NCBI RefSeq assembly: GCF_031432975.1
Contig: NZ_CP133838.1
Span: 2,046,001-2,110,000, forward strand
Direction of reading: 5' to 3'
Length of the DNA stretch: 64,000 bases
Source of the DNA: Buttiauxella selenatireducens
GTDB lineage: Bacteria; Pseudomonadota; Gammaproteobacteria; Enterobacterales; Enterobacteriaceae
Shown: positions 22,679 through 25,253 of the stretch, piece after piece
How the letters are laid out: each line of letters begins with the position of its first letter
Position numbering within the stretch: position 1 is the first letter of the stretch
The notes under the pieces: model-generated
Seen by the model: only the letters and a program-made list of their open reading frames with translations
Databases searched by the model: none
What the model was told of the DNA's origin: nothing
Position numbers and translations under genes: made by a program

Positions 22679-23683
22679 ATGTCTGCATTAACGCCATCAT
22701 CAACAAATACATCATCGGGCGACAACAAGAAAAAGTCGTCTCTGAGTCTCGGTCGCATTTGGGACAACTACGGCATGCTGGTGGTGTTTGCGGTGCTGTT
22801 TATCGCCTGCGCCATTTTCGTGCCCAATTTCTCTTCTTTCGTGAATATGAAGGGCTTGGGGCTGGCCATTTCAATGTCGGGCATGGTGGCCTGTGGCATG
22901 TTGTTCTGCCTGGCATCAGGTGATTTCGACTTGTCAGTCGCCTCCGTGATTGCCTGTGCTGGGGTCACCACGGCGGTGGTTATCAATATGACCGAAAGCC
23001 TGTGGATTGGCGTGGCGGCAGGATTGTTGTTGGGTGTGTTAAGTGGCCTGGTCAACGGTTTTGTTATCGCCAGGCTTAAAATCAACGCGCTGATTACCAC
23101 ACTCGCCACCATGCAGATTGTCCGCGGCCTGGCATACATTATTTCGGACGGTAAAGCGGTCGGCATCGAAGATGAGCGTTTCTTTACGCTGGGCTATGCC
23201 AACTGGTTGGGTCTGCCTGCGCCAATCTGGTTGACGGTGGGCTGCCTGATTATTTTTGGTTTCTTGCTCAATAAAACCACCTTTGGCCGCAATACGCTGG
23301 CGATTGGCGGCAATGAGGAGGCAGCTCGTCTGGCGGGTGTGCCGGTGGTGCGTACCAAAATCATCATCTTTATTCTCTCCGGGTTGGTGTCGGCCGCAGC
23401 GGGGATAATCCTTGCTTCGCGGATGACCAGCGGCCAGCCGATGACCTCGATCGGCTACGAGTTGATTGTGATTTCAGCCTGTGTGTTGGGGGGCGTATCG
23501 CTGAAAGGGGGGATCGGTAAGATTTCCTACGTGATTGCCGGTATTTTGATTCTCGGCACCGTAGAAAATGCCATGAATTTGCTGAACATTTCGCCTTTCT
23601 CGCAATATGTGGTGCGTGGGTTGATTCTGCTGGCGGCGGTTATTTTTGACCGTTACAAACAGAAAGCGAAACGGAGTGTATAG
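22679..23683 (+). CDS. araH: L-arabinose ABC transporter permease
   Basis: 334-residue inner-membrane permease, matching E. coli AraH from GRIWDNYGMLVVFAVLFIAC to its end (RYKQKAKRSV). ATG at 22679 is chosen because TAAGGAGAGAAAA lies just upstream and the resulting N-terminus (MSALTPSSTNTSSG) fits E. coli. The ATG at 22661, overlapping the araG stop, lacks a ribosome-binding site. Followed by a 554-bp inverted repeat instead of a simple terminator. Confidence 0.96.
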   Translation: MSALTPSSTNTSSGDNKKKSSLSLGRIWDNYGMLVVFAVLFIACAIFVPNFSSFVNMKGLGLAISMSGMVACGMLFCLASGDFDLSVASVIACAGVTTAVVINMTESLWIGVAAGLLLGVLSGLVNGFVIARLKINALITTLATMQIVRGLAYIISDGKAVGIEDERFFTLGYANWLGLPAPIWLTVGCLIIFGFLLNKTTFGRNTLAIGGNEEAARLAGVPVVRTKIIIFILSGLVSAAAGIILASRMTSGQPMTSIGYELIVISACVLGGVSLKGGIGKISYVIAGILILGTVENAMNLLNISPFSQYVVRGLILLAAVIFDRYKQKAKRSV

Positions 23684-23728
23684 GCGTGCTCGCTCATTGC
23701 CTGTGCATCGTGAGATCTGCAATTCCGA

Positions 23729-24282
23729 GGTGTTTCCGTTCACCCGGACGGCTGACTATCTCTTTAAACGTTGCTAACGGTGAACGTGCCAGGTGGCTCA
23801 CGCCAGCCCCCTGGCAACCCCGGCGCCCGGTTTTAAATTGCCGCTGGCGCGGTAAACCCCAGCTTATCCCCAACGTTCAGGGTCGTTCGCGACTCGCTCC
23901 CGGCGATCGCTCACTGGCGTGGTTCCCGACCACGCCCCCCTGACTTATGGGGAACACTGGGGCAATTTATACCGGGAACAAGGTCAAAACCGGTTTGGCT
24001 TTTGACGTTAGGTTTTGACGTTGACTTTGGTTCCGGCTTAAATCGCGCCGTTTTATGCCCTTCAGTCGTGGTTGAGCCGCCGGGAGCGGCGAAAGAGAGC
24101 GATCGTCGGGAACGAATCGCGAACGACCGCGAATGTTGGGTAAAAAACGGTGTTTACCGCGCAGCGGCGATTTATTTGCCGGGAGTCCGGGTTCTTAGGG
24201 TGGCGACGGTGGCCACCCTAAGACGTTCACCGGTTCGGTGGCTATATATATCGAAATACTTTGAGTGAACGGAACCATCACC
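23729..24282. repeat. Large near-symmetric inverted repeat (about 554 bp) between araH and otsB
   Basis: The two halves are imperfect reverse complements about a centre near 24004. GGTGTTTCCGTTCAC at 23729 faces GTGAACGGAACCATCACC ending 24282. CGCGGTAAAC (23848-23857) faces GTTTACCGCG (24152-24161). GGTCGTTCGCGA (23881-23892) faces TCGCGAACGACC (24117-24128). These anchors share the same centre, so there are few net indels. Each arm carries its own nested hairpin at mirrored positions (23788-23815 and 24194-24222) with different sequences. Translations of this stretch look random and GC-rich, so I call no gene. It could be a dispersed non-coding repeat, a structured RNA or a fused pair of palindromic elements. 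Confidence 0.8.
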
Positions 24283-24449
24283 GCTTCCAACATAAACAAC
24301 TAAACCTCGTCTCGAAGAGATGATTGCATCCCCCCCGATTATTCCTGGAAAATTGCGACACCCGTCACCCTGTCTATACTTACATGGCTAATCATCATCA
24401 CTCGTTACCGTTACGGTGGCGAAATTAACTGTGTAAGGAGGAGCCACTG

Positions 24450-25253
24450 GTGGCTGATGTATCTTCTGTACCACCTCTACTTTCAGGAAACCTTGCCTTT
24501 TTCTTTGACCTCGATGGCACGCTTGCAGAAATCAAACCGCACCCGGATCAAGTCACTATTCCGGCCGCAGTGCGTACGTTGCTGCAAAAAATCTCCATTA
24601 TGAGCGATGGGGCACTGGCATTGATTTCAGGGCGCTCAATGGCTGAGCTCGATAAACTCGCGACGCCATTTCACTTCCCGCTTGCGGGAGTGCATGGCGC
24701 TGAGCGCCGTGACATCAATGATAAAACCCACGTTGTGACTCTACCTGAGCCTGTTGTATCTGCACTCCAGCAACAATTAACTGAAGCGCTATTGCAGTTC
24801 CCGGGGGCGGATTTAGAAGCCAAGGGCATGGCCTTTGCGCTCCATTATCGCCATGCACCCGAGGCGGCAGACGCAATCTTACAATTGGCACAGTCGATGA
24901 CGCTGCGCTATCCCGAACTGGCGTTGCAGCCGGGGAAATGTGTTGTGGAGTTGAAACCGTTGGGAATTGATAAAGGTGCCGCGATCCGCGCCTTTATGCA
25001 GGAAGCGCCCTTTGCGGGTAGAACTCCTGTCTTCATAGGAGACGACCTCACGGATGAGGCGGGATTTAAACAGGTCAATGCGCTGGGAGGATTGACCATA
25101 AAAGTCGGTAGTGGTGAGACCATTGCCCATTATCGACTGGCCAATGTTCGCATGGTTTATCACTGGCTTGGAAAATTAACGCATCACATAGAACAACAAA
25201 AGTCAGCCATTTCACGGGGAGAAGATTATGAGTCGCTTAGTGGTAGTCTCTAA
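24450..25253 (+). CDS. otsB: Trehalose-6-phosphate phosphatase
   Basis: 267-residue HAD-superfamily phosphatase converting trehalose-6-phosphate to trehalose for osmoprotection. HAD motif I is FFFDLDGTLAEIKPHPDQV with nucleophile Asp20, motif II lies in ALALISGRSMAEL, and motif IV is PVFIGDDLTDEAGF. GTG start at 24450 with AAGGAGGAGCC upstream; E. coli OtsB has a similar length. It overlaps otsA by 26 bp, indicating translational coupling. In E. coli the operon is sigma-S controlled; the promoter is not identified here. Confidence 0.96.
   Translation: MADVSSVPPLLSGNLAFFFDLDGTLAEIKPHPDQVTIPAAVRTLLQKISIMSDGALALISGRSMAELDKLATPFHFPLAGVHGAERRDINDKTHVVTLPEPVVSALQQQLTEALLQFPGADLEAKGMAFALHYRHAPEAADAILQLAQSMTLRYPELALQPGKCVVELKPLGIDKGAAIRAFMQEAPFAGRTPVFIGDDLTDEAGFKQVNALGGLTIKVGSGETIAHYRLANVRMVYHWLGKLTHHIEQQKSAISRGEDYESLSGSL

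Follow-up and report, generated by a model that had tools for sequence, protein, structure and literature searches.

Among the closest described systems is TwoAYGGAY RNA (RF01731), for which CsrA binding has been proposed (PMC4333381). Like the element described here, it has two GGA-loop hairpins side by side, and relatives of the element from the same bacterial family match RF01731. In contrast, the copy analysed here is unmatched, has CNGGA rather than AYGGAY loops and forms a head-to-head dimer in a putative transposon. The CsrA-sequestering sRNAs of the CsrB/CsrC type also present GGA in hairpin loops, and monomer cores related to the element contain a motif near the CsrA SELEX consensus. 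The unit described here has two putative sites as opposed to about 18, is mobile, and in the analysed copy has loops without ANGGA.

On the DNA side, the closest counterparts are MITEs of the Tn5/IS50 group (IS4 family), with which some copies share terminal CTGTCTCTTATACACA and 9-bp duplications. The element is unlike these in its structured cargo of about 0.65 kb, in the endless state of the analysed copy and in its occurrence in a genus whose examined genomes gave no IS50-group domain. REPIN/BIME, ERIC and YPAL repeats (compare PMC2229807) are likewise dispersed palindromic repeats that form inverted pairs, but the Buttiauxella repeat is larger, has another sequence and carries Tn5-type ends in relatives.

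A palindromic repeat between araH and otsB

The window is a stretch of 64,000 nucleotides from Buttiauxella selenatireducens (contig NZ_CP133838.1), and the element lies between two of its genes that, from their ORF translations, we take to be araH (stop at 23683) and otsB (start at 24450). A sequence-only reading had described a 554-bp palindrome at 23729-24282 with a single centre of symmetry near 24004. Inverted repeats are indeed arranged around that point: 23847-23951 matches 24058-24162 at 73% over 105 nt, and further mirrored repeats pair 23731-23743 with 24265-24277 and 23778-23787 with 24223-24232. The limits given proved too narrow, as recognisable element sequence covers approximately 23710-24323. 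Folding of the 554-bp stretch gave z-scores of -10.4 as RNA and -11.7 as DNA, and no shuffled sequence was equally stable (0/20 as RNA, 0/20 as DNA). The small hairpin that had been noticed in each arm exists on both sides, at 23786-23816 and 24194-24222. The sole listed ORF of at least 80 aa entirely within the element encodes 88 aa (24002-24268); an 85-aa ORF starts at 23686, just outside it.

The same reading had described two collinear arms of about 275 bp. The arms are inverted copies of one unit, and it is for this reason, not through a need for full-length pairing, that they are collinear; conserved long arm-to-arm pairing did not hold up. The window element is one worn copy of a repeat with two head-to-head, hairpin-rich units of about 250 nt. 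Read outward, each unit would present two GGA-loop hairpins, then a variable paired hairpin and then a GTTCAC/GTGAAC terminal motif. The parts are as follows.

23710-24323, no strand: whole recognisable element, from alignment with 10 other copies in the genome and from the ends of relatives
23710-23730, no strand: remnant of the left outer segment, GTGAGATCTG..., which in better-preserved copies follows CTGTCTCTTATACACAACTCACCCTGGCAATCTTGTCAGG or variants
23733-23788, no strand: left terminal motif TTTCCGTTCAC ... AACGGTGAACG, with a variable loop between stem parts that hardly vary (alignment A1)
23786-23816, minus strand: left nested hairpin, 8 of 12 pairs covarying among copies
23817-23977, minus strand (the predicted RNA strand, centre to left): left unit core, row L029:517-677 of alignment A2; plus-strand cells AC 43 versus GU 1
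23916-23936, minus strand: left unit hairpin 1 with GGA loop, GGCGUGGUCGGGAACCACGCC on the minus strand
23889-23910, minus strand: left unit hairpin 2 with GGA loop, GCGAUCGCCGGGAGCGAGUCGC on the minus strand
23978-24030, no strand: central spacer with GTCAAAA/TTTTGAC repeats, among the most length-variable parts in relatives
24031-24192, plus strand (the predicted RNA strand, centre to right): right unit core, row L029:731-892 of A2; cells GU 46 versus AC 6
24074-24090, plus strand: right unit hairpin 1 with GGA loop, GAGCCGCCGGGAGCGGC
24099-24120, plus strand: right unit hairpin 2 with GGA loop, GCGAUCGUCGGGAACGAAUCGC
24194-24222, plus strand: right nested hairpin, 8 of 11 pairs covarying among copies
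24223-24276, no strand: right terminal motif ACGTTCACC ... GTGAACGGAACC (alignment A1)
24290-24323, no strand: remnant of the right outer segment, which in relatives continues to GTGACTAAGAGACAG or GTGTATAAGAGACAG

Dispersed copies, which the sequence-only reading had named as support, were present in multiple genomic places. The window's genome contains six full and five partial copies of the repeat of about 0.65 kb, and the repeat was matched in 11 of 12 Buttiauxella genomes, the window's own included. Weaker matches were obtained in 21 of 149 genomes of the wider family (two of them Buttiauxella) in a survey that scored at most three candidates per genome, and short matches in 3904 of 5426 E. 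coli genomes. Phage records gave no match to the element; the three plasmid records that matched are 1.4-4.9 Mb in size and all labelled E. coli. In other genera the related unit is solitary or paired and comprises the GTTCAC/GTGAAC motif, a variable hairpin and a core that is bounded by GCCGG and contains two short hairpins. When read from the centre outward, the two arms of the window element each align with cores of this kind. Related units were also seen as tandem direct repeats (L255 in G096, L256 in G085; periods near 550 and 680 bases). A search of the main text of open-access journal papers found no description of the repeat or of TwoAYGGAY mobility.

In two related species (G001 and G005) the element is absent from the araH-otsB gap. 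In G001 this gap contains a GCCAGGC/GCCTGGC hairpin and, after it, a T-rich stretch, which by eye resemble a terminator. Another genome of the same species (G009, locus L207) has the element at araH-otsB with the flanks in the same orientation and the interior inverted: window positions 23710-24323 are 85% identical to the G009 interior when it is inverted and 69% when compared directly. This arrangement may have arisen by inversion between the arms or by substitution of another copy. The E. coli sites that were opened lie between asmA and yegH. A 136-base unit from this site was matched somewhere in 4428 of 5426 E. coli genomes, at a median of one place, and the alleles (L095, L201-L205) hold a complete unit of about 250 nt, an internally deleted unit (K-12-like), none, or a RelE/ParE-type toxin-antitoxin pair instead. 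A clean empty site at asmA-yegH was considered and rejected; the alleles differ by deletion or replacement, with no clean excision.

Ends, target duplications and mobility

The sequence-only reading had proposed, as one option, a composite mobile element of two inverted units. This is supported by the multiple copies, by Tn5-type ends, by some 9-bp target duplications and by head-to-head pairs in other genera. The well-preserved copies, found in B. agrestis and relatives, run past the coordinates first given and reach Tn5/IS50-type inverted repeats of the CTGTCTCTTATACACA type. Both ends were recognised in 21 of the 51 loci examined, and these two-ended relatives measure 613-660 bp from end to end in 14 cases, 438-475 bp in three and 707-727 bp in four. 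The target duplication is perfect (9/9) in three of the 21 and 8/9 in two. Mismatched flank pairings, used as background, never reached 9/9 (0/420); duplications of at least 7/9 were present in 5/21 two-ended copies as against 27/420 mismatched pairings, a background that is raised by palindromic targets of the form CCCTCTCCC...GGGAGAGGG. By eye, B. agrestis copies (e.g. L096, L105, L121) often sit in the middle of this other dispersed palindrome, and the element family may favour hairpin repeats as targets.

The family has multiple dispersed copies without a transposase gene, together with terminal inverted repeats and target duplications, as expected of MITEs; the window copy (L029) has no recognisable Tn5-type terminal repeat on either side and so lacks the terminal-repeat character. 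The IS50-group DNA-binding domain (PF14706) was found in 0 of 12 Buttiauxella genomes and in 14 of 295 genomes of the wider family. The exact 16-mer CTGTCTCTTATACACA occurs in seven of 30 loci with the IS50-group domain, in other genera (L176, L178, L181, L182, L183, L186 and L189), and L176 has a 9-bp duplication.

Several further sequences with such ends were encountered. The right end of L113, a natural genomic sequence, reads AGATGTGTATAAGAGACAG, presumably identical to the laboratory Tn5 mosaic end. In Serratia silvae, two near-identical elements of about 0.15 kb (L151, L169) have the same Tn5-type ends and a different interior, and a further sequence with a Tn5-type end is present in Pluralibacter gergoviae (L155). 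An autonomous partner was sought among the Serratia silvae matches and none was seen, the elements being only about 0.15 kb long. Tn5-type ends resemble Nextera adapters. An adapter artefact of assembly was rejected for this family, because its ends border diverged copies that lie within a contig of 5.14 Mb. In unrelated genomes, 21 of 35 matches to the Tn5-end sequence by our own count (e.g. L142, L148, L161) lie close to the end of a contig, and these are probably adapter remains.

Relation to TwoAYGGAY RNA and CsrA

The window element gave no match to any Rfam family, RF01731 included, at the gathering score or up to E 1, and RF01731 had no match in the window's own genome; the element is therefore termed TwoAYGGAY-like and not a member of that family. 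A scan of 16 related loci gave seven RF01731 matches in six loci at E 1, with 31.5-42.6 bits (gathering, 43). Among 99 genomes of the family, 18 match RF01731 at E 0.01 and eight exceed the gathering score; the matches are dispersed, with 10 to 23 at E 0.01 in each of eight of the 99 genomes. Among the matches listed, those lying no more than 400 bases apart form, by eye, at least eight head-to-head pairs, which are spread over three genomes; tail-to-tail pairs are absent from the list. One locus with an over-gathering match (L250 in G037) has GTTCAC ends and GGA hairpins on the minus and then the plus strand, as in the window.

Each window unit has two adjacent GGA hairpins with CNGGA (CGGGA) loops. 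In alignment A2, from which two of 15 monomers were left out and in which only seven of 34 Buttiauxella copies were included, GGA is kept in loop 1 of 27/27 units and in loop 2 of 26/27, and the stems vary. An ANGGA in the hairpin loop is absent from the window (CGGGA) and present in most other-genus monomers. Two motifs, ACAGGGAUGU in 6/13 monomer cores and UUACAGGGAUGU in 2/13, resemble the CsrA SELEX consensus RUACARGGAUGU, as given in PMC7652899. To judge by their sequence, which has no leading A, binding of CsrA by the window loops is doubtful. A promoter-like site was looked for inside the element and none was found.

Covariation, strand polarity and competing explanations

Covariation in homologues had also been named as support, and it was found. 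RNAalifold on alignment A1 (34 full cores; L039, L101, L111 and L121 left out of 38) predicted 142 pairs, 39 of which changed on both sides with the pair kept. None of 500 shuffles reached either the percentage paired (98.5) or the 39 covarying pairs, and sliding the partners by 1-3 columns left 31-45% paired and 6-10 covarying pairs. Extra pair types were not above those of shuffles in A1 (497/500 reached the value). At the nested hairpins, 16 of 23 pairs changed on both sides; the hairpins of the two sides are unrelated in sequence because each varies while its stem is kept. The near-invariant outer stem is uninformative either way.

A simple inverted repeat with conserved arm-to-arm pairing was rejected, as the inner fold of the window is 77% Watson-Crick with 2/53 pairs covarying. 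The local hairpin domains inside the arms are 92-93% Watson-Crick with 20/59 pairs covarying. Part of this difference is to be expected, because all copies went into fitting the local structure and a single copy into the window fold; the count of covarying pairs is the stronger part of the contrast.

Selection on a folded RNA or a cruciform had been suggested for the palindrome. The covariation of the nested hairpins and a strand-specific wobble in the Buttiauxella units support such selection; the long collinear arm pairing is the part that fell away. Over the whole dimer, wobble cells are about equal (GU 72, AC 82). An asymmetry within each unit, on the minus strand for the left and the plus strand for the right, was expected beforehand because relatives matched the RNA family on the outward strand. 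Read on the plus strand, the left domain has AC 43/GU 1 (pair types 7/1; 15/1 at the 70% cut) and the right domain GU 46/AC 6 (pair types 10/4; 11/5 at the 70% cut). These counts are limited to pairs with a Watson-Crick share of one half or more; without this filter, wobble-majority pairs of either strand's fold would enter. The strand-specific wobble of the Buttiauxella units thus matches the prediction for RNA read outward. An RNase P control (30 of 40 genomes used) gave GU 113/AC 53 (71/49 at the 70% cut), with the sense strand more stable in 30/30. The predicted strand is more stable in 33/34 left cores and 30/34 right cores. This persists without wobble pairs, and for the right inner domain the predicted strand is more stable in only 23/34; the stability test is therefore not one of wobble alone.

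The polarity was opposed outside these copies, in two alignments of poor quality. The cross-genus alignment (19 pairs) has AC 19 and GU 6 for the predicted strand. The monomer alignment (45 pairs) has GU 18 and AC 10 for the opposite strand; restricted to the 32 pairs that the folds of both strands have in common, it has GU 3 and AC 5. At the nested hairpins, the 90 changed cells on the left include 7 GU and 0 AC, and the 42 on the right 1 GU and 1 AC. Because there is almost no wobble at these hairpins, DNA-level upkeep or correction by template switching is possible there.

A real, recurrent and structured mobile element is indicated by these observations, and its anatomy is well supported; we infer an RNA function. 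It is, in our judgement, an evenly balanced proposition that the element is a degenerate non-autonomous Buttiauxella transposon (MITE) with Tn5/IS50-type ends and a TwoAYGGAY-like dimer as cargo, and a candidate mobile decoy of the CsrA type. An IS50-group transposase would presumably have acted in trans on the ends, and the cargo would be two head-to-head units of about 250 nt related to the TwoAYGGAY RNA candidate. The units would be transcribed from neighbouring or internal promoters, and the folded RNA would expose its paired GGA loops to a CsrA-type protein; the strong hairpins would also limit read-through. The window copy, without ends, would be immobile by that route and would persist as a structured araH-otsB spacer.

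Purely DNA-level structure stays a rival because the cross-genus alignments failed to repeat the opposite biases of the two units. It is a genuine possibility, if on the unlikely side, that the element is a selfish MITE, the hairpins of which act solely as DNA (as a cruciform or single-stranded hairpin) or as two-way terminators, with the RNA-like units as passive cargo. The balance of GU and AC over the whole element, a DNA fold as extreme as the RNA fold, the change of nested hairpins as whole Watson-Crick pairs with wobble nearly nil, the missing RNA-like polarity across genera and the terminator-like hairpin of G001 (by eye) are all in keeping with this explanation. However, each Buttiauxella unit has a strong GU/AC bias that is opposite between the units, as an RNA origin predicts, and the GGA loops are constant on variable stems.

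The covariation could also be mutational. Quasi-palindrome correction is template switching between hairpin arms, and such switching, with recombination among copies, would keep stems perfect without selection. The concerted Watson-Crick changes of the nested hairpins, with intermediates nearly absent, and the inverted or replaced interior in G009 would fit, but the process predicts neither the strand-specific wobble inside units, nor the constant GGA loops, nor a common hairpin plan across other genera, and we consider it decidedly unlikely as the explanation.

Another enzyme (e.g. a RAYT) could instead have spread a large repeat of the REP/BIME kind, with Tn5-type ends as a late addition in one branch. 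This would accommodate the E. coli units, in which GTTCAC is present and a Tn5-type end is, by eye, absent; the absence of that end from 14 loci (L250-L263), several with GTTCAC motifs; and sub-families (L252-L254) with other terminal motifs on the common plan. Yet it is highly improbable given the Tn5-type ends of Buttiauxella copies, some with target duplications, and, by eye, the similar left end in a copy from another genus (L087 in G075).

If the non-autonomous transposon with TwoAYGGAY-like cargo is the correct reading, RF01731, an orphan RNA family typed as cis-regulatory by Rfam, would belong to dispersed mobile elements in this bacterial family. The repeat family supplies natural Tn5-type ends and many diverged copies in which paired hairpins with changing sequence can be studied. 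Should the GGA loops bind CsrA, ready-made sites for a global regulator would travel with mobile elements. A broader and rather doubtful extension, put forward tentatively, is that the TwoAYGGAY-like units of Enterobacteriaceae are mobile RNA head-to-head dimers that borrow transposases and act as decoys or sensors for the CsrA family, and that they would thereby wire loci or genomes into the Csr network.
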